DNA of 64,000 nucleotides, from assembly GCF_000328625.1 (NCBI RefSeq), contig NC_019978.1:2356001-2420000 (forward strand). Direction: 5' to 3'. The DNA is from Halobacteroides halobius DSM 5150 (GTDB taxonomy: Bacteria; Bacillota; Halanaerobiia; Halobacteroidales; Halobacteroidaceae). Within the stretch, counting starts at the first letter, position 1; each line of letters opens with the position of its first letter. Below are positions 60 to 63,189 of this stretch, piece by piece. Position numbers and translations under genes: made by a program. A model generated the notes under the pieces. The model was given only the letters and a program-made list of their open reading frames with translations, made no database searches and had not been told where the DNA came from.

Positions 60-2557
60 CTAAATAAATAAGCTCATATTTGATTGGTCAGCAGAGTTTA
101 AGAAAGTAGCTACTCCACCAACTTCAACTCCATCAATTAATTCTTCTTTTTGAATACCTAGCATATCCATCGTCATCTGGCAAGCAACTAATCTAACTCC
201 ATTCTCTTGAGCTTGCTTCATTAATGATTCTAAAGAATCCACTCCTTTATTCTCCATTACATTTCTAATCATCTTAGGGCCCATGCCAAACATATTCATA
301 TTTGATAGTGGTAACTCTTTACTACCTTGGGGCATCATCTTGCCAAACATCTGATCCATAAGTCCCTTATCTACATCTATATCTTGATTCTTCCGTAAGA
401 CATTAAGCCCCCAGAAAGTAAAGAATAAGGTAACATCTTTACCCATTGAAGCTGCACCATTAGCTATGATAAAGGAAGCTATTGCTTTATCTAAACTACC
501 TTCAAAGACAACCATTGTAGCACCATTTTTAGCTGGAGCACTTTGATTATTTCCTAAAGGTTGATCAGATTGACCTTTTTTAATCTCAGCTGTGAATTCA
601 CTCCCTTGATTACCCGTAGTTAATAAAGTATTACCTGTGCTTTGACACCAGGCCTTAATATCAGCTGTAAACCCTGGATCAGTAGCTACAACTTCTAAAA
701 TATCTCCATCATTAAGCTCTTGTAGCTTTTTAGAGACCTGCATGATTGGCCCTGGACACTGTAATCCACAGGCATCAAGCTTAACTCTTTCTCCTTCACT
801 AGTAGCCATTTCTATTTCCTCCTCTGCTTGTTGTCCTTCTTCGGGGTTAGAAATACTAGCTAATTTATCCTGATTTGGTGTTGTAGAATCATCAACTACC
901 TCATTTTGGTCCTTTTGAACTGCACTATATAGCTTATATCCACCAGCTAAGTTTTTAACATTATTAAATCCATTTTGTAACAAGATTCTAGTTGCAATAT
1001 AACCTCTTAATCCAACAGCACAATAAACTACTATTTCTTTATCTGAATCCAATTCATCTAATCTATCTCGCAACTGATTTAACGGAATATTTACTGAATT
1101 ATCTATCTTACCTAACTGTACTTCTATTTCTTCTCTAACATCTAAAATAATCGTCTCAGAATCTAAATCGGCAATTTCATGCCATTGAATAACATCCATC
1201 TTACCAGTTAAAATATTACCTGCTGTAAATCCAGCCATATTAACAGGATCTTTAGCTGAACCAAATGGTGGTGCATAAGCTAAATCTATATCTTGTAGAT
1301 CAAAAACTGTCTTTTCAAATCTAATTGCTGTAGCTAAAACATCAATTCGTTTATCTACTCCATCATATCCTATAGCCTGAGCTCCTAATAGCTTCCCGTC
1401 TTTAGGAGTGAAAAGAATCTTAAGCATTAATGGTACTGCACCAGGATAATAACCAGCGTGATTTTTCTTATTAATATAAGAAACCTGATAATCAATACCT
1501 GCTGCTTGAAGTTGCTTTTCATTATTTCCAGTAGCTCCTACTTCTAAATCGAAGACTTTGGCTATAGCAGTTCCTTGACTACCTTTAAATTTCTCCTTGT
1601 CTCCCACTAAATTATTAGCTACAATCCGACCTTGTTTATTAGCAGGTCCTGCTAGTGGAATATGGGCTGGTTGCCCAGTGATTACATCAGTTACTTCAAT
1701 AGCATCACCAATTGCATAGATCTTCTCATCAGAAGTTTGTAAATAATCATTAACCTTAATTGCTCTTGTTTGGCCAATCTCTAACCCTGCTTCTTCAGCC
1801 AATTTAGTATTAGGGCTAACTCCTGCTGACATAATAACTAAATCAGTTGTTAATTCAGTTCCATCCTGTAACTCAACTTTCTTTCTTTTATCTTGGTCTG
1901 CAAAGCCAGCTACTCCATTATCTAAATATAACTCAATCCCTTTCATCCGGAGATGATTATGAACTTGAGCTGCCATTTCTCTATCAATTGGCCCTAGAAC
2001 TTGAGGCGCCATCTCTACAACTGAAACATCAAGCCCCCGCTCATGTAAGTTCTCTGCCATTTCAACCCCAATATATCCTGCTCCCACTACTACAGCATGT
2101 TGTGGATTGTTATTATCAACAAATCCTTTAATTTGATCAGTATCAGGAATATTACGTAAAGTAAAGATCTTCTCTCCATCCATACCAGGAAGAGGTGGCT
2201 TAATTGGATCAGCCCCTGGAGATAATACGACATAGTCATAACTTTCACGATAAGTCTCATTAGAGTTTAAATCTTTTATCTCTAATTCTTCTGCCTCACG
2301 ATCAATCTTAAGCACTTCATTTTTAACTCTCACATCAATATCAAATCTAGCCTTCATTGCCTCAGGAGTTTGAACTAATAATTTCTCTCGCTCCTCAATT
2401 ACCTCACCAATATGATAAGGTAATCCACAATTAGCAAAAGAAATATGTGCTCCCTTTTCAAAAATGACAATCTCTGCTTCTTCATCCATTCGAGTAACCT
2501 AGCAGCAGTACTAGCTCCACCTGCTACACCACCAACAATCAAAATCTTATTACCCAT
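60..2557 (-). CDS. CoA-disulfide reductase/rhodanese/TusA/DsrE fusion, N-terminus frameshifted
   Basis: FAD-dependent pyridine nucleotide-disulfide oxidoreductase of the CoA-disulfide reductase/Nox family, fused to three sulfur-carrier modules; it probably reduces CoA disulfide, persulfide or polysulfide in the cytoplasm. Order: FAD/NAD domains with catalytic Cys in SFANCGLPYHIG (about residue 44 of the restored protein), dimerisation domain, rhodanese domain (active Cys in VVYCAVGLRG), a Glu-rich linker, TusA domain with the CPGP motif (about 575-640 of the shorter frame), and a C-terminal DsrE domain with a conserved Cys (VACQMTMDM). The long open frame starts only at 2489 and lacks the FAD-binding N-terminus. 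That piece (MGNKILIVGGVAGGAS...) is present from an ATG at 2557 with an AGGAGG site, but joins the rest only if one base is added near 2491-2497. This is either a sequencing error or a true -1 frameshift. The gene follows the ArsR gene in one operon. Confidence 0.9.
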
Positions 2558-2661
2558 AATCAATCCTCCTTTAAATATTGTTATATATTAATAAACAAAT
2601 ATATGATCTAAAACAAAACAGTTACTTGTTCAAATAAATTTATTTTTAGCAGTGCTTTATA

Positions 2662-2946
2662 TTAAAATAATGTCCTGATAATCTTTTTGGCATCTTCATT
2701 AACTACATAATAATTGACTTCAACTCCATTCCTATTCCCTTCTAAAATATTAAGATTCCTTAATTTAGCTAAATGTTGGGATAGAGTTGATTGAGGAATA
2801 TCAATACAATATTGCATTTTAGATACATTACATCCTTCTTCCTCCATTAATCCCTTAACAATACATAGTCTAATTGGATGGGATAATGCTTTTAAAATTT
2901 CAGCCTTCTCCTCTAACTCTGCCATTTCATTTGTGATATTCTCCAC
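2662..2946 (-). CDS. ArsR/SmtB-family repressor, probable sulfide/persulfide-responsive
   Basis: Winged-helix regulator of 94 residues. The winged-helix core reads ALSHPIRLCIVKGL, and the recognition region is IPQSTLSQHLAKLR. Three cysteines (LCIV, GCNV, QYCID) lie in the first half and could form a thiol sensor. The metal-binding ELCVCDL motif of classic ArsR is absent. The GTG at 2946 is preferred over an upstream TTG at 2961, because the TTG overlaps the GGAGGT site that sits 8 bases before the GTG. It is the first gene of the operon with the CoA-disulfide reductase fusion. A palindrome over the -10 box of its promoter suggests autoregulation. The thiol-persulfide sensing role is inferred from the neighbour and from SqrR/BigR-type relatives. 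Confidence 0.85.
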   Translation of the reverse strand: MENITNEMAELEEKAEILKALSHPIRLCIVKGLMEEEGCNVSKMQYCIDIPQSTLSQHLAKLRNLNILEGNRNGVEVNYYVVNEDAKKIIRTLF

Positions 2947-2966
2947 TTGAATTACCTCCAAAGAAG

Positions 2967-2982
2967 ATTATATTTATATAAT
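2967..2982. promoter_or_regulatory. Palindromic operator over the arsR -10 box
   Basis: Perfect inverted repeat ATTATAT-TT-ATATAAT that overlaps the -10 element of the arsR promoter. This is the usual position for autorepression by ArsR-family proteins. Confidence 0.6.
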
Positions 2983-3006
2983 ACGATATTGAAAGACAAA
3001 TGTCAA
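2978..3006 (-). promoter_or_regulatory. SigmaA-type promoter of the arsR/CoA-disulfide reductase operon
   Basis: On the minus strand TTGACA (3001-3006), a 17-base spacer and TATTAT (2978-2983), about 30 bases before the GTG start. It is the best consensus promoter in the window. Confidence 0.8.
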
Positions 3007-3126
3007 CCACCTAGATTAAAAACTTTCAAATTTAATTGTATAGAAATTGAATTATAAGCAAATTATAAAAATACATCAGGGAGCTTTAGTTTAACTTCCT
3101 GAAATAGTCTATAAAAGAGGGATAGT

Positions 3127-3609
3127 ATGAAAAAAGGGATTACTTTTATACTAATTTTACTATTGATTAGTATGGGAACCTTTGTCTATTATATTCAATC
3201 TGATAGTAATATAGAGAATACTGAAGCTTATACCCCTTGGTGGTTTTGGACCTTGGCCCCTAAAGTAAGACTAATGGCTAGAACAGTATCAGCAGAAGCT
3301 AGAGGAGAACCCTTTGTGGGCCAAGTGGCAGTTGCAGCAGTAATCATGAACCGCGTTGATAGTCCCAAATTCCCCGATACAATAGGAGGGGTTATCTATC
3401 AACCATGGGCTTTTACAGCAGTCATGTACGGACATATTTGGAATCATGCACCAAGCTATAAAACTATTCGGGCTACACTAGCTGCCTATAGAGGTTGGGA
3501 TCCTACTTATGGTTCACTTTATTACTATAATCCAGCCGGAGTTACCTCAATGTGGATTTACTCTAGAGATGTAGTAAGAAGAATTGGTAAACATATCTTT
3601 GCTTATTAA
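3127..3609 (+). CDS. SleB-family cell wall hydrolase, membrane-anchored or secreted
   Basis: Peptidoglycan hydrolase of the SleB/Hydrolase_2 family (lytic transglycosylase-like). An N-terminal hydrophobic segment (about residues 4-23) is followed by the catalytic domain (about 46-160). The family motif around the proposed catalytic glutamate is seen in MARTVSAEARGE (Glu57), followed by AAVIMNRV, with the characteristic YYNP near the C-terminus. At 160 residues it is little more than the catalytic domain; the peptidoglycan-binding repeats of spore SleB are missing, so a vegetative role is as likely as cortex lysis. A GAGGGAT site precedes the ATG. It is the only convincing plus-strand gene here, and no YpeB partner is adjacent. 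Confidence 0.88.
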   Translation: MKKGITFILILLLISMGTFVYYIQSDSNIENTEAYTPWWFWTLAPKVRLMARTVSAEARGEPFVGQVAVAAVIMNRVDSPKFPDTIGGVIYQPWAFTAVMYGHIWNHAPSYKTIRATLAAYRGWDPTYGSLYYYNPAGVTSMWIYSRDVVRRIGKHIFAY

Positions 3610-3664: not shown

Positions 3665-4789
3665 CTACTTTTCTTCTTTCCATTCAGGGTTAAGATAATT
3701 TATATCTTCAGCTACTAAAACATCCCTTTGGTTATTACTAGTGTATAGCTTTAAATCTTTACTATCTTCTCCATCTGTAACATAAAGAATTAATCTTTCT
3801 TTAGTATCCCACAGAGCATAATCATAAATTCTCTCTCTAGTTTTAAATAATGATTGCAAACCACTTCCATTAGGATTAATCTGCTTGATAACTGTTTTTC
3901 CAGTGCTTGATGTAGTAAACAAAATCTTATCTTCTTTGTAAGACCAAGTTGGATGCTGATCTACTCCTAGGCCTTTATTTAATAATAACTTTCTATCTCC
4001 TGTGATCTTCATTAAATGGAGTTGTCTCTTACCAGTTGTTGCAGAGATATAAGCAATTTGTGCTCTTTTAGCAGAATAAGCAGCTTGCCCATCATAATGA
4101 TTATTATCTGTCAGTCGTCTTAAAAAGCTACCAGCTAAATTAGTCAAATACAAATCATAATCACCATCACGATTAGAGGCAAATAATATACTATTGTCAC
4201 CAACCCAAATTGGAGTTTGCTTGTTCGTAGTAGTATAAGTAATTTGCTTTAAGTTAGAGCCACCTGCATCCATAGTATAAATATTAGAGTTTCCAGCTCG
4301 ATTAGATAAAAAGACAACCTTCCTTTTATTAGCAGACCAATCTGGTGCCCAATCATCTCCTTTATCATCTGTTAGCTTAGTTACTTGATTACCATAAATA
4401 TCAGTCAGATAAATACTTTTAGAATCACTTTGGTCACTAACAAAGAAAAATTTAGTCTCCCTTCTACTCTCTAATCCAATCTTAACCTTCTTATCTCCTG
4501 CTTGTAAAGTCAGTGGTTGAGCATAGACTCTATACCCTGGTGCACTAACCTTAAGCATTCTATCTTTAACTGATAAATCATCTACTACGGGAATATTTTT
4601 AACTATAAAGTAACCATGGGCATTAGTCTCTACTAGTCGATTTCCGACCTCAACTTGAACCCCAGCTAGAGCTTGACCAGTAAACCTATCAGTTACCTGA
4701 CCTCTTAAATTCATATATTCAGTCTTACATCCTACTACACTTAAAGTCAATATTAATAATAAACTAGTTAGTAATAACTTCTTTTTCAT
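3665..4789 (-). CDS. Lipoprotein with carboxypeptidase-regulatory-like and TolB-like propeller domains
   Basis: The signal peptide ends in a lipobox (SVVGC, Cys21). Residues about 27-110 form a carboxypeptidase-regulatory-like beta-sandwich (LRGQVTDRFTGQALAGVQV). From about 115 to the end run PD40/WD40-like TolB repeats (GDDWAPDWSANKRKVVFLSN and similar blades), giving a small beta-propeller. It is probably anchored in the outer membrane or periplasmic face as a protein-protein scaffold. It is the last gene of the run with LPP20-, FlgT- and CsgG-like proteins, 13 bases after the LPP20 gene, so it likely works with them. No enzymatic function can be assigned. Confidence 0.78.
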   Translation of the reverse strand: MKKKLLLTSLLLILTLSVVGCKTEYMNLRGQVTDRFTGQALAGVQVEVGNRLVETNAHGYFIVKNIPVVDDLSVKDRMLKVSAPGYRVYAQPLTLQAGDKKVKIGLESRRETKFFFVSDQSDSKSIYLTDIYGNQVTKLTDDKGDDWAPDWSANKRKVVFLSNRAGNSNIYTMDAGGSNLKQITYTTTNKQTPIWVGDNSILFASNRDGDYDLYLTNLAGSFLRRLTDNNHYDGQAAYSAKRAQIAYISATTGKRQLHLMKITGDRKLLLNKGLGVDQHPTWSYKEDKILFTTSSTGKTVIKQINPNGSGLQSLFKTRERIYDYALWDTKERLILYVTDGEDSKDLKLYTSNNQRDVLVAEDINYLNPEWKEEK

Positions 4790-4802
4790 CTAACTCTCCC
4801 CC

Positions 4803-5699
4803 TTAATTTAAAACAATAATTACTTTACAATTAGCAAAGATATTATTAGTTCTTCCTACTTGCTTAACCCGATTAGCTTGTTTATTAGATAGCACTATAT
4901 CTGTTTTATAGCTACCTTTTATTTGCTTAGCATTAATAATCAGTGGATTATTTCCTGCTCTTGGGTTAACCTTGGCCCCGGCTAAACTTCTACTGTATTT
5001 TACAATCCCCTTAGTAACTACTCCATTTGAATTAACAATACTCATCCCATAAATTATATTTCCACTAGCACTATAGATCTTAGGAACTAAGGCAGGCTCA
5101 ACATCTAAGCCTATAGTATTAATAATAATCCCTGTATAATCCTGGGCTACACTAGTAGTTGAATTATTACCTCCTGGATCATTAGACGGATTAAGACTAA
5201 ATTGCCGACTCTGTTTAGCTTGCTTAATTTCTTCTTTTAGCTTAGGAAAAATGGCCTTCACAATACCATTTTGACCATAAAATTTAACCTCCATTACTAC
5301 CTTATAGACTCCCTGGGCTGGACTCTCTTCCTGTATAATCTTGGCCCCTTTAATCATACCAGATAGTCTCTTCTTAACTATATCAGATTGAATTTGAGCA
5401 TTCTTAACTGTTTGAGTAGCATTAACTTGAACTCCTTTAATAGTTTCTAATAAATGTCGTTGGGCCAAGGTAATAGCAGCTTCTCTAGCCATTATTTTAG
5501 CTTGGGCATCATTATTGATATAGTCAGGAGCTATACCATAACCAGTGGCTTTAACTACTGATTGCTCCCAATCAATTTTATTTTTTTGTTCTTGGTTACT
5601 CAAAAAATTATTTGCCGCACTAGCTTTAGTTCCTACACCTAAAATCATACTTACTATTAATAAAGCTGCTACAACATAAACGGTTAGCTTCCTTAACAT
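4803..5699 (-). CDS. Secreted LPP20-family protein
   Basis: 298-residue exported protein with a signal peptide ending near TKASA. The LPP20 signature follows at about residues 55-150 (AREAAITLAQRHLLETIKGV then VNATQTVKNAQIQSDIVKKR). Such domains occur in envelope proteins such as Helicobacter LPP20 and near flagellar FlgT/FlgP. It lacks a lipobox. The ATG at 5699, 8 bases after AAGAGGTGG, is chosen over the GTG at 5708 inside the ribosome-binding site. The second half (about 190-298) matches nothing I recognise. It sits between the FlgT-like and TolB-like genes in a tight cluster. Confidence 0.75.
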   Translation of the reverse strand: MLRKLTVYVVAALLIVSMILGVGTKASAANNFLSNQEQKNKIDWEQSVVKATGYGIAPDYINNDAQAKIMAREAAITLAQRHLLETIKGVQVNATQTVKNAQIQSDIVKKRLSGMIKGAKIIQEESPAQGVYKVVMEVKFYGQNGIVKAIFPKLKEEIKQAKQSRQFSLNPSNDPGGNNSTTSVAQDYTGIIINTIGLDVEPALVPKIYSASGNIIYGMSIVNSNGVVTKGIVKYSRSLAGAKVNPRAGNNPLIINAKQIKGSYKTDIVLSNKQANRVKQVGRTNNIFANCKVIIVLN

Positions 5700-5718
5700 T
5701 AATACCACCTCTTAAAAT

Positions 5719-6873
5719 TTATTTGATCTTTATGACTAACTTTGTGGCTGACATACTCCTAATTTTAAAAGCAAAGTTAACTCTTTCTTTTAACTCAATA
5801 GCCAAATTTAAAATCTTAGCAGTAGTCTCCAAATCAAGATCAAAAGTTGCTAAACCACTTCCATAATCTCTAAAATAAGAATCTTTAACTCCAGATAAAG
5901 TAGGTAGGGCATTTCTTAATTGATTTAATTGACTTAAAGATTTAACCCCTGCAATCCTTATCTTAATTGTCTTCTCCCCTTGGATTAAATCCTTACTTAT
6001 TTTTTCAATAAGATTATCTGCTAAATTACTACTAGCTGTTACTAATGCTTTCTTAGCAGCACTCTCCTTATTAATCCCAGCCCCTTGACCATTACTATTT
6101 ACTGCTGCAATTACTTGGGCAGTAGCAGTATTGATTACTCTAGCATTTATTTGAGCATTATAACTTTTTAAACTAGATGCAACACTATCACTAAACATAT
6201 CATCTAAGTCAACATAACTAGCTCTTGCATCCCCTACTACAATAAAATCAGCATTTAATTTAGACCCTAATTTCGTAGCTAATTGAAAATCACCCTGCAA
6301 AATTGATCGGCGTTGTTCTCTAGTAATAATTTTATTAATCATATACCTATCTATTACTTGATAACCTGAACTAACAAATTGATCCATTAATTCAGTTTCT
6401 ACAATTGAGGAAGATAAATTAAGATAATATCCTTCTTTTAGTTGGGAAATTAAGATCATTATCCTAGGATTACCAATACGTTTAATATTCATCTTAAGGG
6501 CTTCTACATCTGCACTTAAATCCTTAACCCCTACCTTTACTCTTAGTCTAACTTGATATAAACTACCACTAAGTTCCTTATGCAAAACTTTATAACCTGT
6601 TACATAACCTTGACTATTCTTTAAAATTTCATCTTTAATTAATTTAGCATTCCGAACTTTAGTAGTAGCACTAATAAAAGTTCCTGCCACCTGTTCTACT
6701 GCTCTTCTTAGAGCGTTATTTATAGCCTGCTCTTTAACTTGAACTAAGTTGCCAGCAGTAACAGATGCCATTCCTTCTACCTCTACCACTTGACTATCAC
6801 TAGCATTAATTACTGGTCCTATACTTATCAATAATAATAAGCTGACTAGAAATACTAATTTTTTATTTACCAT
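5719..6873 (-). CDS. Secreted FlgT/CsgG-like envelope protein
   Basis: 384 residues with a signal peptide (cleavage near VINA-SD). Residues about 30-120 resemble the FlgT N-terminal/LPP20 fold (AINNALRRAVEQVAGTFI, then YVTGYKVL). Residues about 130-290 resemble the CsgG-like middle domain of FlgT: a region ending IVETELMDQFVSSGYQVIDR, followed by ADFIVVGDARAS. In Vibrio FlgT builds the H-ring of the flagellar motor, but no flagellar genes are nearby, so only the fold is claimed. It is 10-20 bases from genes on both sides and was probably co-translated with the CsgG-like protein upstream. Confidence 0.72.
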   Translation of the reverse strand: MVNKKLVFLVSLLLLISIGPVINASDSQVVEVEGMASVTAGNLVQVKEQAINNALRRAVEQVAGTFISATTKVRNAKLIKDEILKNSQGYVTGYKVLHKELSGSLYQVRLRVKVGVKDLSADVEALKMNIKRIGNPRIMILISQLKEGYYLNLSSSIVETELMDQFVSSGYQVIDRYMINKIITREQRRSILQGDFQLATKLGSKLNADFIVVGDARASYVDLDDMFSDSVASSLKSYNAQINARVINTATAQVIAAVNSNGQGAGINKESAAKKALVTASSNLADNLIEKISKDLIQGEKTIKIRIAGVKSLSQLNQLRNALPTLSGVKDSYFRDYGSGLATFDLDLETTAKILNLAIELKERVNFAFKIRSMSATKLVIKIK

Positions 6874-6890
6874 TAGAATCCTCCCTCTTT

Positions 6891-7934
6891 TTAAAGCTGA
6901 TAACGATTATAAACTTCTTGAGCAAACACATCAACAGCTTTAAGCAAAGCCTCATCAATTAACTCTTCATCTGAAGGAATAATAACAGATTCACCTTCAT
7001 AATAACTAGTACTATAATTTACTTTCTTCTCAACTTTTTTACTTAAAACTACTGCAGCATTGCTTACATCTAATAATTTAAAATAAAGGTGGACATAAGC
7101 TGACTTTTGTATTTCATACCTTCTCTTCTTAGAGTCTGAATAATAAACTTCAACATACTGACTTACTTTATTTTCTGATACCTGTCCACTAATCACTTCC
7201 CCTACTACTAGATAGTCAACCCCTAAAATATTGCCTATCTCTTGTGAGCTAGCAGGACTTAATAAACCAGTAGCACCTAATCTTTGTTCTTTAATTATTT
7301 GATTTAATTGTTCACGTTCAATTACTTCAATAAACTTAGGATCCTTACTTAATAATTGAGCAGTAAATAGGCTAGTAGCTTTATTTCCTAACTCATAATT
7401 ATATGAATTATCCTCAAATTGTATGATTGCTATGCGCTTTAATTTTAACTTGCGTAATTTTTGATAGGCTCGCTGGTATTTATAGGTAGTATCTAGATAA
7501 TCTCCAAAGCGTTTTACTTGTTTAAATTCTTGGTAGGCTAATTGCCACTTTTCTTCGCTTAAATACTTACTTCCTAATTGATAATGCTTCTGTTGGTAGT
7601 TATTCTTAGCTTTATATAATAATTTTTCTGTTTTTATAGTACTTCTTATCTCAGAAGCTTCTTTTAAATTATCAATAGCTAATCCATAATCTCCCGCTTG
7701 AAAATACATCTGACCGCGCTCTAAATAATAAGTATATTGTTGTTGCTGATAATCATTCACCCAATTAATAATCCCCCAAACTCCTAATACTACTAATCCA
7801 CCAAGACCTATATTCTTTAAAACTTGGTTATCAGTGGCTCTGCCTTTAGCTTCTACATAACCACTTCCGATAAATGTGACTAACATAAAGAATACTAATA
7901 AAGTCGAAATTAATTTACTACTCCCCTTTAACAT
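6891..7934 (-). CDS. CsgG-like outer-membrane assembly protein with TPR-like N-terminus
   Basis: The start is placed at the ATG at 7934, 7 bases after GAAAGGGG; an upstream ATG at 7958 has no such site. An N-terminal hydrophobic segment is followed by a TPR-like helical region (about 55-150: YYLERGQMYFQAGDYGLAID). A CsgG-like domain covers about 165-345 (KRIAIIQFEDNS, VIEREQLNQIIKEQRLGATG, VDYLVVGEVISG). CsgG forms the curli secretion pore, but this copy has no lipobox at the expected place and no curli subunit genes are adjacent. It is the first gene after the hairpin at 7981-8008 and leads the run 7934-3665. Confidence 0.75.
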   Translation of the reverse strand: MLKGSSKLISTLLVFFMLVTFIGSGYVEAKGRATDNQVLKNIGLGGLVVLGVWGIINWVNDYQQQQYTYYLERGQMYFQAGDYGLAIDNLKEASEIRSTIKTEKLLYKAKNNYQQKHYQLGSKYLSEEKWQLAYQEFKQVKRFGDYLDTTYKYQRAYQKLRKLKLKRIAIIQFEDNSYNYELGNKATSLFTAQLLSKDPKFIEVIEREQLNQIIKEQRLGATGLLSPASSQEIGNILGVDYLVVGEVISGQVSENKVSQYVEVYYSDSKKRRYEIQKSAYVHLYFKLLDVSNAAVVLSKKVEKKVNYSTSYYEGESVIIPSDEELIDEALLKAVDVFAQEVYNRYQL

Positions 7935-7980
7935 AACTTCTACCCCTTTCTTATCCAAATAATCTACGAATTAAGACTAT

Positions 7981-8008
7981 AAAGACAGGAAGAAAACTTC
8001 CTGTCTTT
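7981..8008 (-). terminator. Terminator between barrel gene and CsgG-like gene
   Basis: Perfect 12-bp stem AAAGACAGGAAG/CTTCCTGTCTTT with a four-base loop, immediately downstream of the 9244-8012 gene on the minus strand. Confidence 0.75.
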
Positions 8009-8011
8009 TGC

Positions 8012-9244
8012 TTAAAATTCTATTTTAAATGTTAGACCAGATCTTAAATCCTTAGTCTGATTAAATAATCCTGTTAGATCAGAAACACCTAAATCTGCCT
8101 GTAACGGGCCAAGGTATAACCCTAAACCAGCTGACCAATCAAAGTCATTCTCTAAAGTAGAATAATTAAGTCCTGTCCGTAAGGGTAAGAAACTAAGCCA
8201 CGTTAATTGAGTAGCTGCTGCTATCTGATGATCTTGATAACTTTCTTCTCCCGTATAATAAGTAGTATATGAATAGTCAGTAAAGAAAGTGATATCTTCA
8301 CTATAACTCATCTGACCTCCTACCCGATAAGTAGCTGGCAAGCGCCATTTTAAATCTTGGGTAGATCTTCCTTCTTCTGTCTTTTGTAAGGTCTTATCTG
8401 TAGTTTGGCTATCATAATTATACTTATACTTAATATAACGAGTACTATCGGCTGTCATAGCTCCTATATTCATCACACTAAATCCAACAGTATAAGTATC
8501 ATTTAACCGAGCATAAGTTCCAAAATCAAGCGCAGACCCCATTGCCATATCAGATGCAGTCTCCATCGGATTATACTTAACAGTAAATTGACCATTACTT
8601 GTAGCCTTTGGCCCACCATCAGCAGCATAATCAACCTTTAAATCACCCGTACCTGTAACCTTAAAGATTGTTCCTGCTAGTTGATGATAGGTAAAGCCAA
8701 TATATAAATCCTCTACATCCCAGATATCTTCTGGACCTGTAACGGAAAGATTAACTGCCCCATCAGCATAAATTGCCCCACTACCAGTTGAATCATCAAA
8801 CTGATAAGTTTTACCAATTTTATTTCCTTGCAGTACTAATCTAGCTATATCAGGATTAAATCTAACTACTCCCTCTGCTTTAAGGTCTAAACTGGTAGCT
8901 ACAGGGCCAATAATCAACTTAGCACCATTTCTACCTGTCACTCCAACGAAAAAACCTTCACCTTTGATACTAGATAATAAATCCTTTTTTTCTGCTGAGC
9001 TAATATAATCATTCTTCAATAAGTTATTCCAGATTTTCATATCTGTACCTAACTCTAAAGTAAATACATCTGCATTAGCATTAACTGCCGCTGGATTGCC
9101 ATATAAAGCATCTGCTCCTGTAACAGTTACAAAATTATCACCTAAACCAATCATTTTAGCCGAAGAATTAGCTAAAGTAATAGACGTCACCGCTATAAGT
9201 AAGACCATCACCACAACTAAACTAATAAATTTATTCTTTAACAT
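8012..9244 (-). CDS. Outer-membrane beta-barrel protein, PorV/TraF-like
   Basis: 410 residues with a signal peptide ending near TLA-NSSA. The mature start (AKMIGLGDNFVTVTGADALY then GNPAAVN) is the hallmark of the PorV/TraF-like barrel group, where an N-terminal plug strand contains the Asn-Pro-Ala-Ala motif. The remainder alternates short hydrophobic strands and polar turns and ends GLTFKIEF, a C-terminal aromatic beta-signal. This predicts an outer-membrane barrel. The gene is 19 bases downstream of a large lipoprotein gene. PorV shuttles substrates in type IX secretion; I see no other type IX genes, so the role here is open. Confidence 0.75.
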   Translation of the reverse strand: MLKNKFISLVVVMVLLIAVTSITLANSSAKMIGLGDNFVTVTGADALYGNPAAVNANADVFTLELGTDMKIWNNLLKNDYISSAEKKDLLSSIKGEGFFVGVTGRNGAKLIIGPVATSLDLKAEGVVRFNPDIARLVLQGNKIGKTYQFDDSTGSGAIYADGAVNLSVTGPEDIWDVEDLYIGFTYHQLAGTIFKVTGTGDLKVDYAADGGPKATSNGQFTVKYNPMETASDMAMGSALDFGTYARLNDTYTVGFSVMNIGAMTADSTRYIKYKYNYDSQTTDKTLQKTEEGRSTQDLKWRLPATYRVGGQMSYSEDITFFTDYSYTTYYTGEESYQDHQIAAATQLTWLSFLPLRTGLNYSTLENDFDWSAGLGLYLGPLQADLGVSDLTGLFNQTKDLRSGLTFKIEF

Positions 9245-9263
9245 TAGTAGTCACCTCCTTAAA

Positions 9264-11348
9264 TTATTGTGCAAATTGATTAACTTTAGTTGTTAATTCA
9301 AGATATGCATCCTCAATCTTAATAAGATCAGTCGTATTTAATGTTACATTACCACTCTTAATGATATACTTAATACCTGTATAGACATTATCTTGGGTAA
9401 AGACCTCTGCAGCTTCAGGTCTTAAAATAAATTCCTTCTTACCATCATCACCTTCATCTAGAGTAAATGTCTTTACTAAATTATCTGGCTTATATAATTT
9501 GTCCAGCTCGTCTTCCTTCTCCTTTGAAGTTAAACTAGCTAAATGATTTTTAATATTATCATAAGTAGCCCAGTCACTAACCGTACCAGCATAATATTTA
9601 ATCTCTAAGTTAATTGGCAATTGATTTTCAAAATCCCCTATAATCAGCCTTGCCTCTTTAATTCCAGACTTAAGAGCAGCTAACTGACGCTCAGTTAGAG
9701 CTTGGCCCATTGCAGTAATCGCTACTTCATCCTCTATATTCTGATTGAGTGTAAAATCAAATGGAATATTCATCTTAACCTGAGGAGCAATTACACTATC
9801 AGCACTAACCTTTAGCGGACTAGTATCTGCTCCGGCTTTAATTGCACCAGCCAACACTACAGAATCAACTCTACTAGAATCTAATCCTTGTAACCAAGTT
9901 ATTAATTCACTAACATTGAGAGAAATTTTAGAATTGCTAGCAGTAATTTTAGTGCTATCACTAGTTAATTCAGTAATAGGTTTCTCATCTACTAGACTAC
10001 CATCAGCTTTAGCTACAAATTTAATAGGATTACTAGTACTAGTTAAATCTAGATACAACCCCTTAATACTATGATCAATAACTAACTCCATTGTAGCGTT
10101 ATTTAAAGATAACTTAGAAAGTTTATCAGGAATACTAGACATTATCTCTTGAGTCAAATTCTGATCAAATTGACTAAAATCAATACTCGATTTATCAATT
10201 GTTACATAATTTATCTGTGGATTACTAAAACTACCAGTTACTGCAACTGATTGACTAGCATCATAAGTTATATTACTACCTGAAACTGTAAGTATATACT
10301 CAATATTAATATTTCCAGAAGAAAGACTAGCCTCTTGCCCTGTTAAATCTACACTACTAGTATCACTAGTTATACTCCCCAAATTAAATTGATTAATAGT
10401 AAAATTAAGAGTACTATTAGAAGAATTAATAGCTAAATCTAAGTTACCACTATTAAAACCAATACTTTGTAGACCATCTTTTATATGAATACTAGTTGAC
10501 TTATCAAAAGTGATACCTGAACTCAAATCATATCCTTCGATTCTACTAACTTCTGCTTGTGGTAAGCTAAAATCAAATGCTAAACTTTCGCTTCCATCTA
10601 AAGTTACAAAATTACCTGTATTATTAACTAAATCAAATTTTATAGAAGCATTAATTAGATTAGATAATTCTGTGCTTTGTAAGTCCCAATTACTATCTTG
10701 ATTACTACCATCAGCTATAGAAGTAATTTCTGCTGGAATTTTATTTCCCTTAGCATCCGTTAAATTCAAAGCTAGATTTTCAACTTTAAGTCCAGTGGCA
10801 TTAGTTACTGTAATATCCATCTTGTTTATGGTATTAGCACTAAAGAGAATACTACTAAACTGATTTGATAGATCAATAGAAATACCATTTAACTCTGTAC
10901 TAGAAGTACTGTCATAATTATACCTACTCCCAGCAGGAATTGTCTTTCCTGAAGGCAATGTAATGCTAGAATTCTTATTAGGAATTAAAGGATCGGTGCT
11001 ACTACCTAAAGTAATTAAAGGTAAATCTACTGAGGAACTTATTGTAGGCCACGTTATATCAGTCATTTTTTCACCCAACTTAATCGAAGCTAAATTCTTA
11101 GTTTGATTGATCTTAATTCTTGTATCAGTTGCCCCCTCTTTAGGCACTACAATCTCACTTCCTAAATTCTGTTCACGTAATACATCCCCTAAAACTTTTT
11201 CTTTACTCTCAATTAAAGGAACTTTATATGCTACATCCCAAGCCGGGCCAAAGCTATTTCCCCGAGGATTACGGGCACAACCAACAGCTAGTCCGACTAA
11301 TACTAAACATAATACTACTAATCTTAATCTTTTGGACTTTGTTTTCAT
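9264..11348 (-). CDS. Large surface or periplasmic lipoprotein of unknown function
   Basis: 694 residues. Signal peptide with lipobox (GLAVGC, Cys24). The mature N-terminus has the phrase GPAWDVAYKVPLIESKE. The rest is Ser/Thr/Asn/Asp-rich and beta-strand-like, with no cysteines or obvious catalytic motif, suggesting several stacked beta-sandwich domains. It is probably displayed at the outer membrane. It is co-transcribed with the PorV/TraF-like barrel 19 bases downstream, a pairing that suggests the barrel helps export or anchor it. I do not recognise a family. Confidence 0.7.
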   Translation of the reverse strand: MKTKSKRLRLVVLCLVLVGLAVGCARNPRGNSFGPAWDVAYKVPLIESKEKVLGDVLREQNLGSEIVVPKEGATDTRIKINQTKNLASIKLGEKMTDITWPTISSSVDLPLITLGSSTDPLIPNKNSSITLPSGKTIPAGSRYNYDSTSSTELNGISIDLSNQFSSILFSANTINKMDITVTNATGLKVENLALNLTDAKGNKIPAEITSIADGSNQDSNWDLQSTELSNLINASIKFDLVNNTGNFVTLDGSESLAFDFSLPQAEVSRIEGYDLSSGITFDKSTSIHIKDGLQSIGFNSGNLDLAINSSNSTLNFTINQFNLGSITSDTSSVDLTGQEASLSSGNINIEYILTVSGSNITYDASQSVAVTGSFSNPQINYVTIDKSSIDFSQFDQNLTQEIMSSIPDKLSKLSLNNATMELVIDHSIKGLYLDLTSTSNPIKFVAKADGSLVDEKPITELTSDSTKITASNSKISLNVSELITWLQGLDSSRVDSVVLAGAIKAGADTSPLKVSADSVIAPQVKMNIPFDFTLNQNIEDEVAITAMGQALTERQLAALKSGIKEARLIIGDFENQLPINLEIKYYAGTVSDWATYDNIKNHLASLTSKEKEDELDKLYKPDNLVKTFTLDEGDDGKKEFILRPEAAEVFTQDNVYTGIKYIIKSGNVTLNTTDLIKIEDAYLELTTKVNQFAQ

Positions 11349-11522
11349 TATTAGCCTCCTTATATTTTTAAATAATTTATTTTCTTTTCTAAAAGATAAA
11401 TGGATAATTATATAATTAATTCTACATCCTTTCTTAGTTTCCTTTACTTTTATTAACTTAATGCAAATTATATACCTAACAAAAACCTACTCTAAATAAT
11501 TAATCTATCAAAAAATAAAAAA

Positions 11523-11548
11523 TACAAGGGCTTAATTAAGCCCTTGTA
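11523..11548 (-). terminator. Terminator of the SpoIID/TPR gene
   Basis: 26-base perfect palindrome (TACAAGGGCTTAA/TTAAGCCCTTGTA) followed on the minus strand by TTTTTTATTTTTTG. Confidence 0.9.
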
Positions 11549-11551
11549 CCT

Positions 11552-13666
11552 TTAATACCAATTTTCTAATTTAATATCTGTATAGAAATGATGCAAAATC
11601 TTCTTGTAATTTTTGCCGTGATCAGCCATACTAGCTACAGCTACCTGATCCATACCTACACTATGGCCCCAACCACTACCATAAAATAAAAAGTCAACTA
11701 CTTGACCATCTTCATACCGGGGTTGGATCCAGAACCGATTATTTCTTAAGCCACCAAATCTCCACCGGATTCCATCCTTAAAGACTTTGGTCTGCTTAGC
11801 TCCAACTACCTGTAGTGCTTTTACACTTCCTGCTTCACTACGAAGGGTTGGGATAATCTGCTTAATATCTTCAATGCCTAATCTATTCTCTAAATAATCT
11901 ACAGCTAAGCTCCGTTGCCAGCGATAATGGCTTAATTTAGTATACTCTTTATCTGCTGAATAAGACTGAGGTATCTTCTTTAACCATTTCTTTAACTTAG
12001 CAGGCGGTAGAGGAAATTCAGTCTCTTCCATTGCAGTAGAAACCCCACGTAAATAAGGTACTTCTCCACTCCAGATATCCTCACTATCCTCTGTATGACC
12101 ACCTGAATTAGCACTATAGACAGCATTAATTGGCTCTCCCTGATAGGTCATTACATCACCAGCTGTCTTTCTAACAGCTTGAGTAGATCGTTGATACTCT
12201 CTACTTAAGCCACGATAAGCCGCACAATGAACAGTTGAGCATAAGTCAAAACCTTCACTCACATGGCGACCTAAATTAGCTAAAGTATAACTTCTAGCCG
12301 CCACTGCTTGCACCTTTAAAGCACCAAGGGGCCAAGAAGCAGACATCTCCGAAGGAACTACTGCTGCTAAATACTCCTCTAAGTGTACTAGATTAACAAC
12401 TGTCACCCCTTGCTCAGCTGGTCTTAACTCTAGTAAACCACGATACTGGCGATCTTCTTTGCCACCCCAGTAATAATTTTGACCATATTTAACATTATGC
12501 ACTAAAATAGGCACATAAGCCTGTGGTACAATCTTAACTGGTTTACTAAAATCTAATTTTTGCTCTCCAAAGTCTAACTGATAACTACCCTGCTGATAAG
12601 AAGCCTTGACAATTTGGCCTTTCTCTCCAGTCGCAACTATCTTAGTACCTTGCTTAACTGAAAAATCACTACCTACTCTAAAGAAGACTTGTGGTTGGTT
12701 AGTCATAATCCCAACTCTTATCTGTGGCCCAGCTTGTGGTAAAGGTTTGATTGTTTTAAAATCAACCTCTGTCGGTAAATCCTCTCTAGTAATTGGCTCC
12801 TCTTGACCTGGAGTAGGCACTGGAGCAGGAGTAGATTCAAAATACTGTGGATACTTCTCCTGTAACTTAGCTAATTCTTGATTTACTAATTGGTCACTAC
12901 TATTTTCACTATGAGCTGCCTTAAAATACTTAATCGCAGCCCCGATTTGCCCTGCTTTAAGGTATGATAACGCTAATTCACGGGCTACACCTTTCAAACT
13001 TCCATCAGTTTCTAAAGCCTGATGATAAAGGTCACGTGCTTGTTGATACTTACCTTGAGCAAATCTAACTTGGCCCAACTGATAATAACCTAACGCAAAA
13101 TTGATTTGCTTTAAACTTTTTTGCAAATGAGTAGCCGCTAGTTTATAATCCTGCTGTTGTTTATAACTTAATCCTAAATAATAATGTGCTTCTCGTAATA
13201 AATAATCTTGTTGGCCAGTAGCTACAGCTTTAGATAATTGCTGCTTAGCTCTTTGCAGTTGGCCCAGATTATAATAAGCAATCCCCAATCCTAATCTAAC
13301 CTGTGGTTGTGAATCTAACTTTAATAACCTTTGGTAACTTTTTGCTGCTAGTTGATACTTACCTAGCTCTTCATAAATCGTAGCCAAATTAAGCAGTGCC
13401 TGCTGAGATTTAAATTCCTTAGCAATTCTTTTATACTGCTTAATACTACTCTGATAATCTCCCTGATAATAAGCCTGTCGCGCTACAGTTAATAATTTTT
13501 TGACTGGTTCCTTCTTGACTGGTTCTTTCTCTACTTTCTTTTGCTCTTGGCCCTGGGATATCTGCTCTTTGGGAGCTAAATAAAAACTCCCTACTGCTAG
13601 ACTAATCCCAAATAATAAACCAATAATTACTATTCCTAGCACCATTTTATTCCTATCCTGCCACAT
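11552..13666 (-). CDS. TPR-repeat protein with SpoIID/LytB domain
   Basis: 704 residues. One N-terminal membrane segment (about 10-32), a Lys/Glu-rich linker, then about six TPR units (about 55-275: ARQAYYQGDYQSSIKQYKRI and similar). A Pro-rich break near 285 is followed by a beta-rich region and a SpoIID/LytB domain (about 395-704) with VPSEMSASWPLGALKVQAVA, YSANSGGHTEDSEDIW and GSGWGHSVGMDQ. SpoIID is a peptidoglycan lytic transglycosylase and LytB an amidase enhancer. The TPR part suggests a docking role in the envelope rather than the classic sporulation protein. It has its own promoter and terminator. A second possible start (ATG at 13645) has an equally good site. Confidence 0.83.
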   Translation of the reverse strand: MWQDRNKMVLGIVIIGLLFGISLAVGSFYLAPKEQISQGQEQKKVEKEPVKKEPVKKLLTVARQAYYQGDYQSSIKQYKRIAKEFKSQQALLNLATIYEELGKYQLAAKSYQRLLKLDSQPQVRLGLGIAYYNLGQLQRAKQQLSKAVATGQQDYLLREAHYYLGLSYKQQQDYKLAATHLQKSLKQINFALGYYQLGQVRFAQGKYQQARDLYHQALETDGSLKGVARELALSYLKAGQIGAAIKYFKAAHSENSSDQLVNQELAKLQEKYPQYFESTPAPVPTPGQEEPITREDLPTEVDFKTIKPLPQAGPQIRVGIMTNQPQVFFRVGSDFSVKQGTKIVATGEKGQIVKASYQQGSYQLDFGEQKLDFSKPVKIVPQAYVPILVHNVKYGQNYYWGGKEDRQYRGLLELRPAEQGVTVVNLVHLEEYLAAVVPSEMSASWPLGALKVQAVAARSYTLANLGRHVSEGFDLCSTVHCAAYRGLSREYQRSTQAVRKTAGDVMTYQGEPINAVYSANSGGHTEDSEDIWSGEVPYLRGVSTAMEETEFPLPPAKLKKWLKKIPQSYSADKEYTKLSHYRWQRSLAVDYLENRLGIEDIKQIIPTLRSEAGSVKALQVVGAKQTKVFKDGIRWRFGGLRNNRFWIQPRYEDGQVVDFLFYGSGWGHSVGMDQVAVASMADHGKNYKKILHHFYTDIKLENWY

Positions 13667-49703: not shown

Positions 49704-50714
49704 TCACAGCACACAGCTCAAAACTTCCTCAGCACTAATATTCTCCATACACTGATGATGTTCTAAAGGACACTCATGCTCACCACACGGGCGACAATCA
49801 AGTTCAGTCTTTATTACTTGATGATTCTCTCCGTACGGGTGATACTTTTTCTCATCTGACGGGCCAAAAATAGCTATAGTCGGAGTATCTACACTAGCAG
49901 CTACATGAACTGGTCCACTATCACCACTAATAAATAAGTCACATAATGACGCTAAAGCAGCTAACTCCTTTAAATTAGTCTTTCCGGCAGCTACAATAGG
50001 TTCCTCCTCCATCATATTTACTATCTGGTCTACCCGATCAACATCACCGGGCCCACCAAAAAAGACTACTTTAGCCCCTTGCTTGATTAATTTATCTGCT
50101 AGGTTGGCCCAATTATGGCAAGGCCACCGTTTAGTAGGCCAACTAGCTCCTGTATTCAAACCAATAATCTTATTTTCATCAGTATTAGCTGTAGTTAAAA
50201 ACTGCTCCATACTCTCTAAAGCCGAATCATTAATTCCTAACTCCTGTCCTGCATCATCAAAAATATCTAGATCTATTTCTGGTAATAAAGCAAGATAATT
50301 ATCAACCATATGTCCTGCTTCCACTGGAGTTAAAGTCTGGTCTAAAAAAACTCCTCTACCTTTGGTACCATACCCTACACTATACTTAGGATTAATTATC
50401 TTTAGTAATAGAGCAGTCCGCCAATTACCATGGATATTAAGTCCTAGATCATAATCATTACCGCTTAGCTCTCGAGCAAAACTCCAACTTTCTGTAAGGC
50501 CCCAATCTTTATCATAGGCATACACCTGCTCCAAATGAGGATTGTCCTCAATTATCTCAGCAAAATTGGCATTGGCTACTAAATCTATTCTAGCTTGGGG
50601 AAAATTCTTTTTCAAATTACGAAAGAATGGGGTGGCAAATAGCAAGTCTCCCAAATATAGTAGATCGATAATTACTATTCGTTCAGCTTTTTGCATCTGA
50701 TTCATCTTACTCAC
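49704..50714 (-). CDS. Glycosyltransferase family 9 (heptosyltransferase, WaaF-like)
   Basis: 336 residues. GT9 signature: RIVIIDLLYLGDLLFATPFF at the start, NTGASWPTKRWPCHNWANLA in the middle, LFISGDSGPVHVAASVDTPT and FGPSDEKKYHPYGE near the C-terminus, plus the C-x2-C-x4-C-x6-C cluster (CRPCGEHECPLEHHQC). Probably adds heptose to the LPS core. Its GTG start overlaps the stop of the WaaA-WaaC fusion gene (GTGA), so the two are coupled; an ATG at 50705 is an alternative. Confidence 0.9.
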   Translation of the reverse strand: MSKMNQMQKAERIVIIDLLYLGDLLFATPFFRNLKKNFPQARIDLVANANFAEIIEDNPHLEQVYAYDKDWGLTESWSFARELSGNDYDLGLNIHGNWRTALLLKIINPKYSVGYGTKGRGVFLDQTLTPVEAGHMVDNYLALLPEIDLDIFDDAGQELGINDSALESMEQFLTTANTDENKIIGLNTGASWPTKRWPCHNWANLADKLIKQGAKVVFFGGPGDVDRVDQIVNMMEEEPIVAAGKTNLKELAALASLCDLFISGDSGPVHVAASVDTPTIAIFGPSDEKKYHPYGENHQVIKTELDCRPCGEHECPLEHHQCMENISAEEVLSCVL

Positions 50715-53053
50715 ACTCCAATTTTTTGATTAATAACACTAAAAACTTGATCAACTGTTATTTCTTCCATGCACCTATGAGTCTCCTTGGGACACTCTCG
50801 CTTCCAGCATTTTTTACATTCTATATCTGGTTGAATCACAATATGTTCTTTGCCATAAGGGCCATGAGTTACTGGAGTAGTTGGGCCAAAGAGTGCTACC
50901 GCGGGAAGACCCATAGCTACTGCTAGATGAAGTGGACCTGTATCACCACCTACAAAAATTAGGGCCCGCCTATAAAGCTCGGCTGTTTCTTTTAGATTAG
51001 TCTGGCCTGCTAGATTATAGGCTAGAGTATCCATTTGATCTTGAATGGCTTCTATCTGCTCTTGATCACTTGGCCCGCCAGTAAAGATAACTGTAACATC
51101 TAATTCTTTAATCAATCTATCAGCTAATTGAGCGTATCTGCTAGGTAACCAATTTTTAGATTCCCAGCTAGTTAAAGGATTAATAGCTACTAATTTATCA
51201 GTTTCTGTTATCTTTAGTTCAGTTAATAATTGATCTACCTTTATTTTTTCTTCTTTAGAGATCACAATATCAAATCCTACCTCTTGACTGGTAGCTCCTA
51301 ACCCCTTTTTAGCTAAATAAAGGTGCTTATCAATCTGGTGCATCTGGGTTGTAGGTAGTTCTAGCTGTTGATTATAAAAGAGGGGACTACCTTCTTGGCC
51401 CGCTTGGGAACCGATTCTTCGCTTGGCCCCACTTAGATAAGCTGTTAGACCACTTTTAAATAAGCCATGAAGATCTAAAGCTAAATCAAAATCATATTCT
51501 TTTCTTATCTTAGCAAAAAATTCTTTAGCTTCTTTTAGAGTAGCCCTCTTGTTTGCTTTAAAGTCGGCTTTCCATTGCTCTTTAGGTAAGACAATAACTC
51601 GATCTAAATTAGGATTATCTATTACTAAATCCTTTGCTTTTTCCTCTACAATCCAAGTTAATTGGGCCTGCGGATAAGTCTCTCTAACTGCTCTAGCTAC
51701 TGGTAAAGCATGAATTACATCCCCAATAGCACTTAAACGAACTAATAATATCTTTCTGGTAGCTATTAATTGTTGGGCTAACTTAGCATTGGCCCTAGCT
51801 GCTCCTTGATTTTGCTTAATTAAATCTAGGGCTTGTCTATTTTTAGCCTTTAACCTAGCTCGGTCTTTAAGATAACAGGCCATTTTAACTGCCAACTGGT
51901 CAGCATCCTGTACCTGAATTCCTACGCCATGCTCTAATAATAACTCTGTACTATCCTTAAAGTTATACATAGCTGGGCCAAAGAAGACCAGTTTTCCTTG
52001 GGCAGCAGGTTCTAAAATATTATGTCCTCCTCTATCTATTAAACTACCCCCTACAAAAACAAGGTCGGCAATCCCATATAAGCTAGCTAGCTCACCAATA
52101 GTATCTACTATAATCACTGACTCCTGCTGGGGGTCTCTAGTCTTAATTCTACTTCTTCTGACAGTCTTAATCCCTGCTCTATGATAGATAGCCTCAATTT
52201 CTTCTTTTCGGACTACATATCTAGGGGCCAAGAGCAAGACTAAATCAGGAAACTTTTCTTTTAACTTCTGGTAACAAGATAGTAACTGTTCTTCCTCATC
52301 CTCATGAGTACTACCAGCTACTATAATAGGTTCTTTAGGATCTAATTTAAACTCTTGATAAATTTTTTCTTTAGCCTCAGGGCTAGTACTACCATACTCT
52401 TGGTCAAACTTAGTATTTCCATTATTATAAACTATATCTTCATTAGCCCCTAATGTAATTATTCTTTCTTTATCTAACTGTGACTGCATACTAAAAGAAT
52501 CAATCTTAGCTAATACATCTTCTACGAAAGGACCTAGTTTTTGATAACGATCAATACTTTGGTCACTAATTCGACCACTAGCAACCATTATCTGACTTCC
52601 TTTTTTGCTAGCTTGGCTAATTAAGTTAGGCCATAATTCTGTCTCCATTAACACGATTAATTCTGGGTTAACTGTTTGTAGAACCCGCTTGATAATCCAG
52701 GGTAAATCAAAAGGAAAGTAGATGATCTCATCTGCCTCATCTATTAATTTATGGGCCATCTCTTGGCCCGTAGTAGTCATCGTAGAAAATAGAATCTTAT
52801 ACTTGGGAAATTTATCACGTAACTTTGTAACTAATGGTTCAGCGGCTCCGGTTTCACCCACAGAGGCTGCATGAACCCAAATTACCTGTTTCCCTGATAG
52901 ATTATATTTAATCCTAGCAGATAAGAATCCTAAACGTTGCTTAAATTGTTCTTTAGGTTCTCCTTTGAATATTATTTTATATAACATAACTGGCAAATAA
53001 AAAATAAAAACAACTAATAACAATAAATCATACAGCCAATAAGCTACTCGCAT
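50711..53053 (-). CDS. Kdo transferase-heptosyltransferase fusion (WaaA-WaaC)
   Basis: 780-residue fusion. The N-terminal half (about 1-430) is WaaA/KdtA: an N-terminal membrane anchor, IWVHAASVGETGAAEPLVTK, TMTTTGQEMA, ELIVLMETELWPNLI, IIVAGSTHEDEEEQLL and GGSLIDRGGHNILEPAAQGK. The C-terminal half (about 432-780) is a GT9 heptosyltransferase I: KILLVRLSAIGDVIHALPVA, LDLHGLFKSGL, INPLTSWESKNWLPSRYAQL, FVGGDTGPLHLAVAMGLPAV, plus a Cys cluster. So one chain could add Kdo to lipid A and then the first heptose. Own promoter; coupled to a WaaF-like gene. Confidence 0.93.
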   Translation of the reverse strand: MRVAYWLYDLLLLVVFIFYLPVMLYKIIFKGEPKEQFKQRLGFLSARIKYNLSGKQVIWVHAASVGETGAAEPLVTKLRDKFPKYKILFSTMTTTGQEMAHKLIDEADEIIYFPFDLPWIIKRVLQTVNPELIVLMETELWPNLISQASKKGSQIMVASGRISDQSIDRYQKLGPFVEDVLAKIDSFSMQSQLDKERIITLGANEDIVYNNGNTKFDQEYGSTSPEAKEKIYQEFKLDPKEPIIVAGSTHEDEEEQLLSCYQKLKEKFPDLVLLLAPRYVVRKEEIEAIYHRAGIKTVRRSRIKTRDPQQESVIIVDTIGELASLYGIADLVFVGGSLIDRGGHNILEPAAQGKLVFFGPAMYNFKDSTELLLEHGVGIQVQDADQLAVKMACYLKDRARLKAKNRQALDLIKQNQGAARANAKLAQQLIATRKILLVRLSAIGDVIHALPVARAVRETYPQAQLTWIVEEKAKDLVIDNPNLDRVIVLPKEQWKADFKANKRATLKEAKEFFAKIRKEYDFDLALDLHGLFKSGLTAYLSGAKRRIGSQAGQEGSPLFYNQQLELPTTQMHQIDKHLYLAKKGLGATSQEVGFDIVISKEEKIKVDQLLTELKITETDKLVAINPLTSWESKNWLPSRYAQLADRLIKELDVTVIFTGGPSDQEQIEAIQDQMDTLAYNLAGQTNLKETAELYRRALIFVGGDTGPLHLAVAMGLPAVALFGPTTPVTHGPYGKEHIVIQPDIECKKCWKRECPKETHRCMEEITVDQVFSVINQKIGV

Positions 53054-53107
53054 TATTAAACACCCTCACCAATAGTAGTTTATAGATTATTATTCCCTTT
53101 CTTTCAG

Positions 53108-53136
53108 ATTATATAATAAATATAATCATACTTCAA
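53108..53136 (-). promoter_or_regulatory. SigmaA-type promoter of the WaaA-WaaC operon
   Basis: TTGAAG (53131-53136), a 17-base spacer, TATAAT (53108-53113), just after the lptD terminator. Confidence 0.65.
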
Positions 53137-53154
53137 TCAACATTCTTTAGCAAA

Positions 53155-53190
53155 ACAGGTAAGCTCGTTCCTAGGAACGAGCTTACCTGT
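53155..53190 (-). terminator. Terminator of lptD
   Basis: A perfect 36-base palindrome (ACAGGTAAGCTCGTTCCT and its complement) followed by TTTTGC on the minus strand. Confidence 0.88.
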
Positions 53191-53198
53191 TTAATTAT

Positions 53199-55109: not shown

Positions 55110-55150
55110 TACTTACACCTCACTTTAATTAAAGTATCACTATAGCCTTT

Positions 55151-55156
55151 ATTATA
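55151..55156 (-). promoter_or_regulatory. Possible -10 element of the lptD promoter
   Basis: A perfect TATAAT lies about 45 bases before the GTG; the -35 box 17 bases upstream (TAGATG) is poor, so this is tentative. Confidence 0.4.
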
Positions 55157-55234
55157 ACATGAATTACAGTAAACATCTATCACCATAAAATAGAAAATAC
55201 CTACTTAGCTACTACAAACTACTAAATAGGTATC

Positions 55235-57170: not shown

Positions 57171-57186
57171 CTCTGCCCCCCCTTTT

Positions 57187-60580: not shown

Positions 60581-60583
60581 TGT

Positions 60584-63180: not shown

Positions 63181-63189
63181 AAAATATAT

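Follow-up and report, generated by a model that had tools for sequence, protein, structure and literature searches.

Two adjacent envelope gene modules in Halobacteroides halobius, one of them an outer-membrane-associated FlgT/LPP20/CsgG set

Do six consecutive genes for exported proteins encode a single apparatus at the outer membrane, or distinct systems that happen to be neighbours? This question is raised by positions 3665 to 11348 of a 64,000-nucleotide stretch of the Halobacteroides halobius DSM 5150 genome (NC_019978.1, 2,356,001 to 2,420,000; hereafter the window). A prediction made from the sequence alone had read here six consecutive exported proteins forming a single apparatus, possibly an outer-membrane assembly or secretion system. 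The first part is correct: the six open reading frames (ORFs) are intact, all lie on the minus strand, and each of the six products carries an N-terminal hydrophobic export segment. The six genes are, however, two adjacent modules (Table 1). Module A encodes a predicted outer-membrane β-barrel and a lipoprotein, and module B a TPR-CsgG protein, a FlgT-like protein, an LPP20/FlgP-like protein and a propeller lipoprotein. Of greatest interest is module B's FlgT/LPP20/CsgG set, whose distribution is bound to the outer membrane and separable from flagella.

The division into two modules emerges from gene order in relatives. Those found through the barrel belong to Natroniella, Orenia, Halanaerobacter, Halonatronum and Fuchsiella, which places the host in the Halobacteroidaceae, among the diderm Firmicutes. 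B-type genes (FlgT/LPP20/CsgG/propeller) adjoin module A in the host genome, a single contig of 2,649,255 bp, and in four relatives (G006, G010, G011 and G012), whereas modules A and B lie on a separate contig or at a separate locus in four others (G007, L029; G008, L031; G009, L030; G004, L032). Between the two modules of the window stands a strong hairpin (-22.2 kcal/mol, z -6.5) that is terminator- or attenuator-like but whose coding-strand T-tail is poor; a terminator scan made no call at this place. Because of these separate loci and of the hairpin between them, we consider A and B independent. Their distributions differ as well, the module A pair being confined to few relatives while module B spans many Firmicute families. 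The single apparatus of the original prediction is thus not retained, and the tight spacing invoked for it is only part of the picture: the gaps across the six genes measure 10-53 bp, but the hairpin separates the barrel gene from the CsgG gene. A promoter scan of the locus gave a result no better than chance.

The integrity of module B was evaluated in a sample of 398 genomes of the phylum, using a profile of the FlgT-like protein and taking E<1e-20 as a strong match. Such a match was obtained in 24 genomes, and in 17 of these the FlgT-like gene is accompanied, within about 3 kb, by an LPP20 gene. The 17 genomes represent 8 families (f1, f4, f7, f12, f18, f31, f40 and f59), and one further case is located at a contig edge. 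The order of the genes varies: CsgG-FlgT-LPP20-TPR/CsgG (f31, L057-L059), FlgT-LPP20-TPR/CsgG-large CsgG (L053, L054, L064), LPP20-FlgT-CsgG (f12, f59), CsgG-CsgG-LPP20-TPR/CsgG-FlgT (f18) and CsgG-FlgT-LPP20 (f40, L051). Gene fusions are also found. Two ORFs of Halonatronum saccharophilum (L029:7485-8702 and 9855-11390) join the N-domain of the propeller protein to LPP20 and the N-terminal half of the TPR-CsgG protein to FlgT, and FlgT_N is fused to a PQQ propeller in family f4. These fusions tie the members of module B together. The linkage of the genes exceeds chance, with orthologous neighbourhoods recurring in relatives and the core of module B in other families. Gene-order conservation, suggested earlier as a check, holds for the core of module B across Firmicute families and not for the six genes as one unit.

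The domains originally read are upheld, with refinements. The LPP20 protein matches Pfam LPP20 weakly (E=0.09), and its profile (A4) retrieves from the PDB Campylobacter jejuni FlgP at 6e-24 (9HMF chain), while further solved chains of FlgP score between 1e-8 and 2e-6. Its C-terminal half resembles the middle domain of TP0624 (5jir, 4e-11). FlgT_N is detected in 15/15 homologues of the FlgT-like protein (best 4e-10), although the window protein itself scores 25.9 bits, under the 28.8-bit cut-off; it matches FlgO at 5.7e-5 (23.4 bits, cut-off 22.6), and its profile matches FlgP (9hmf) at 1.5e-9. The TPR-CsgG protein matches the CsgG model at 1e-16 (61 bits, cut-off 20.8) over model positions 11-156 of 210, and a phmmer search with it returned unrelated TPRs only. 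It shares this domain with the curli channel CsgG, from which it differs by the lack of a lipobox, by a predicted transmembrane helix and TPRs in front of the domain, and by a match that ends at 156/210; the anchor type and the partial domain weaken the hypothesis of a CsgG pore. The protein may instead be membrane-anchored by its second hydrophobic segment. In the propeller lipoprotein we found PD40 (1.4e-11) and CarboxypepD_reg (4e-8). It has β-propeller repeats in common with TolB, whose chains it matches at 8e-12 from residue 113 onward; it differs from TolB in being lipidated and in carrying CarboxypepD_reg in place of the TolB N-domain, and it stays under the TolB cut-off (TIGR02800, 181 bits against 343).

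The three domain types FlgO/CsgG, LPP20/FlgP and FlgT_N are those of Vibrio FlgO/FlgP/FlgT, which form the H-ring and outer-membrane disk, and module B encodes them together. Unlike the Vibrio proteins, module B is not limited to flagellated hosts and here lies outside the flagellar locus; it also adds TPR, membrane-helix, TP0624-like and propeller domains. C. jejuni FlgP, which builds the basal disk, is a 171-residue lipoprotein, whereas the LPP20 protein of module B is a non-lipoprotein of about 300 residues with a second domain. In the FlgP family, ring formation is associated with an insert that follows the SHS2 helix and precedes the second strand (PMC12222027, which names 9HMF as the motor scaffold model). 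Sequence alignments of both the LPP20 and the FlgT-like proteins to FlgP are gap-free across the segment in which this insert falls, for the LPP20 protein from the helix through to the strand, which predicts that they would form rings or disks.

To which structure of the cell is module B linked? Each of the 24 genomes that match the FlgT-like profile strongly encodes Omp85, compared with 102/398 overall (p=7e-16; this and the following counts treat genomes as independent, uncorrected for relatedness). Flagella were scored by flagellin, FlgI and rod/hook genes (PF06429). Rod/hook genes are present in 335/398 genomes and in 88/102 of those with Omp85; among the latter, module B carriers (21/24) and non-carriers (67/78) do not differ (p=1). 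Flagellin gives the same picture within the class, where it occurs in 13/15 carriers and 30/44 non-carriers (p=0.2). Genome G299, assembled as one contig of 2.23 Mb, contains two module B sets and no rod/hook (PF06429) match. A flagellum is thus not required for the presence of module B, and the Omp85 association together with the lack of a flagellar one indicates that module B tracks the outer membrane. A dependence on flagella only is unsupported by the presence or absence of flagellin, FlgI and rod/hook genes. The host itself encodes Omp85 (at 2453599), flagellin (2272665) and the P-ring protein FlgI (2461809). The absence of flagellar partners, noted originally, is accordingly true around the window but not of the genome, and the closest solved relatives of module B are flagellar disk and ring proteins. 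The original prediction is right in that this diderm Firmicute has a gene set, with FlgT, LPP20 and CsgG among its members, that is linked to the outer membrane, conserved in gene order and apparently undescribed. A search of the open-access literature yielded no description of this set or of its flagellum independence, and the terms CsgG and TolB do not occur in a survey of the outer membranes of Firmicutes (eLife 2016).

Module A is much rarer. A scan of genome contigs gave eight loci, all in Halanaerobiales or DTU029, and the barrel adjoins the lipoprotein in 8/9 barrel-carrying genomes of the order; the exception is Halanaerobacter (L019), where no lipoprotein gene was seen beside it. DUF5723 is found in 9/9 barrel homologues (best 7e-14), and profile A1 matched no PDB sequence. 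The barrel model (predicted local distance difference test, pLDDT, 74) has a predicted FadL/PorV/BamG-type fold, with FadL at 1.4e-9 in Foldseek and VIA Z scores of 22 for FadL, 19 for BamG and 19 for PorV. The PorV chains 8gl6_F (Z 19.0) and 6h3i_F (Z 18.9) are level with other FadL-family chains; all lie at Z 18-22, so that the fold cannot choose among them. The lipoprotein has no family match in Pfam or NCBIfam, and a profile search of the PDB returned a single chance ribosomal match. It is predicted to be β-rich, with several sandwich-like domains (pLDDT 81), and its top fold match is the Parabacteroides secreted protein BDI_1231 (4h3w; Z 12 over 282/312 residues), which is half as long and 10% identical. 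Conservation concentrates at its N-terminus, where 6 of 19 invariant mature residues fall within 21 positions after the Cys (p=9e-6); the N-terminus of the barrel is not more conserved than the barrel overall (p=0.17). By eye, we further noted that the pair precedes in Fuchsiella a 1090-residue ORF (L020:9203-12475) which starts like LptF/LptG and is possibly a fused lipopolysaccharide-export protein. In DTU029 (L046), likewise by eye, the pair sits between galU and flagellar genes, with a second barrel of PorV/TraF-like N-terminus just upstream (2360-3490) and flagellar-like genes downstream from about 14165.

We favour, with belief and doubt in equal measure, an explanation by two independent envelope modules: B would be a flagellum-independent periplasmic scaffold of FlgO/FlgP/FlgT type, tied to the outer membrane, and A a barrel that holds a lipoprotein. 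The LPP20/FlgP-type and FlgT-type SHS2 proteins would oligomerise into a ring or disk beneath the outer membrane. The TPR-CsgG protein, perhaps anchored to the inner membrane, may connect it with this ring, while the propeller lipoprotein could serve as an adaptor on the membrane side or on the peptidoglycan side. The barrel of module A would hold its partner by the conserved N-terminus of the lipoprotein, much as BamG holds BamH. Several points weigh against this explanation. Ring formation is deduced from homology and from the position of the insert in alignments, and the inner-membrane anchor is a guess from hydropathy. The likeness to BamG-BamH draws on the class of fold, the order of the genes and the conserved N-terminus, and no BamH match was found for the module A lipoprotein. 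The LPP20 and FlgT-like genes are unlinked in several f40 genomes, and the LPP20 family includes proteins without a motility role, such as Helicobacter pylori HP1456 (PMC11756786). Finally, module B has flagellar genes nearby in family f4 and in G036; it lies 5-6 kb from the late flagellar operon in G019 and G020 and between flagellins in G036. In some lineages it may thus have been recruited to flagella and have a flagellar role there.

These last neighbourhoods also speak for a flagellar accessory ring, equivalent to the H-ring or basal disk and bracing diderm Firmicute flagella at the outer membrane, which is the leading alternative for module B, albeit an unlikely one. It would account for the homology to FlgP, FlgT and FlgO, and flagellin and FlgI are indeed encoded by the host. 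A FlgP homologue of the diderm Firmicute Acetonema longum already served as a query in 2018 (PMC5758724), hence single homologues were on record. But module B is not enriched with flagella among Omp85-positive genomes, G299 has full sets without rod/hook genes, 30/43 flagellin-positive Halanaerobiia genomes do not have module B, and in the host its distance is about 85 kb to flagellin and 100 kb to FlgI.

Less probable again is a role for module B in controlling the synthesis or hydrolysis of peptidoglycan, exerted from the outer-membrane side, as LpoB activates PBP1b. The LpoB model matches 9/17 TPR-CsgG homologues, but LpoB and CsgG/FlgO models cover one fold, which makes the match non-specific. 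TP0624, to one domain of which the second half of the LPP20 protein is similar, is called OmpA-type in its PDB entry. Genes for cell wall enzymes are close by: a SleB-like hydrolase gene and a TPR-SpoIID gene lie near module B here, and a related TPR-SpoIID gene flanks module B in family f31 (L053, L054, L064). The latter is convergent, not co-oriented, with module B, and no penicillin-binding protein gene adjoins module B.

Module A could be a remote counterpart of the BamG-BamH pair of Bacteroidota, attached to the BamA of the host, but we hold this to be improbable, slightly more so than the peptidoglycan hypothesis. In the Bacteroidota β-barrel assembly machinery, the conserved N-terminus of BamH is wedged inside the barrel of BamG, and the genes for BamG2 and BamH2 are paired in Bacteroides thetaiotaomicron (PMC12578637). 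Module A likewise combines a barrel gene with an adjoining lipoprotein gene, its lipoprotein is most conserved at the N-terminus, and the FadL-type barrel fold predicted for module A is that of BamG, FadL and PorV of the type IX secretion system. However, the score against NCBIfam BamG (E=0.0012) is 18 bits for a cut-off of 250, and FadL and PorV fit equally well. No match to BamH was obtained by sequence, and BamH is absent among the listed Foldseek and VIA fold matches, which is not proof of absence. Moreover, the pair occurs in a handful of genomes, unlike an essential part of the machinery, and its lipoprotein has no acidic residues directly after the Cys as Bacteroidota surface lipoproteins do. 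Membership of module A in BamG/BamH is not supported, given the low BamG score and the lack of a detected BamH relationship. The N-terminal conservation of the lipoprotein and the BamG/BamH precedent lead us to propose that module A works like a barrel holding a lipoprotein, with no claim of family membership.

The least probable explanation is a single export or assembly machine with CsgG as its pore, for which there is no positive evidence as a secretion system: the six genes are adjacent and co-oriented here and close on one strand in four relatives, but pair and set are apart in four others, most carriers of the set are without the pair, the CsgG-domain protein has the anchor and truncated match described above, and no substrate genes were noted.

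The positions of the genes and of the neighbouring features are collected in Table 1. The TPR-SpoIID gene is found upstream of the module A pair in 7/7 Halobacteroidaceae relatives examined (the L019 copy is truncated at the contig end). Between the lipoprotein and SpoIID genes, several relatives have a conserved ORF of about 180 residues with the motif HLNSTRSSYHV (L013:12970-13518, L014:11983-12519, L015:6369-6905, L018:12442-12972), not seen in the corresponding gap of the window (11349-11551). At the other end of the window, 50711-64000 holds outer-membrane and lipopolysaccharide genes: a Kdo transferase with a fused heptosyltransferase-type domain (50711-53053), an LptC/LptD_N-type protein (53199-55109), an SLH-porin (60970-62661) and, probably, another barrel (63248-63952). 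Beside them, 57187-60438 on the minus strand encodes a 1083-residue exported protein with Ig-like and InlB-B-repeat-like domains.

Table 1. Features of the locus, in window coordinates.
Feature	Position	Strand	Module	Characteristics
SleB-type cell wall hydrolase	3127-3609	+		just downstream of module B
Propeller lipoprotein	3665-4789	-	B (associate)	lipobox Cys; CarboxypepD_reg domain and TolB-type β-propeller, without TolB N-domain
LPP20/FlgP-like exported protein	4803-5708	-	B	N-terminal SHS2-type FlgP domain and second domain
FlgT-like exported protein	5719-6873	-	B	FlgT_N and FlgO/CsgG-like
TPR-CsgG protein	6891-7958	-	B	signal peptide, second hydrophobic helix (about 46-68), TPR, CsgG/FlgO-type domain
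Hairpin between modules A and B	7971-8006 (approximate limits)			12-bp stem, 4-nt loop
Predicted outer-membrane β-barrel, 410 residues	8012-9244	-	A	FadL/PorV/BamG-type fold (predicted), C-terminal Phe
Lipoprotein, 694 residues	9264-11348	-	A	lipobox ...VGC, then conserved N-x-x-x-x-x-x-G-P-x-W-D
TPR + SpoIID/LytB protein	11552-13666	-		conserved neighbour, not counted as part; SpoIID_LytB 8e-63

The outer-membrane disks of flagella are regarded as components of the motor, and the origin and loss of the atypical outer membrane of Firmicutes are under debate. We tentatively suggest, as a possibility that still has the balance against it, that diderm Firmicutes have a widespread, flagellum-independent ring or disk apparatus, tied to the outer membrane and made of FlgP-, FlgT- and CsgG-type proteins, and that flagellar basal disks and H-rings are a specialised use of this older scaffold. 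If this is true, a FlgT/FlgP/CsgG set whose presence follows the outer membrane and not the flagellum would offer a concrete candidate for the state of these rings before flagella, and it would also be a structural system new to this kind of outer membrane.

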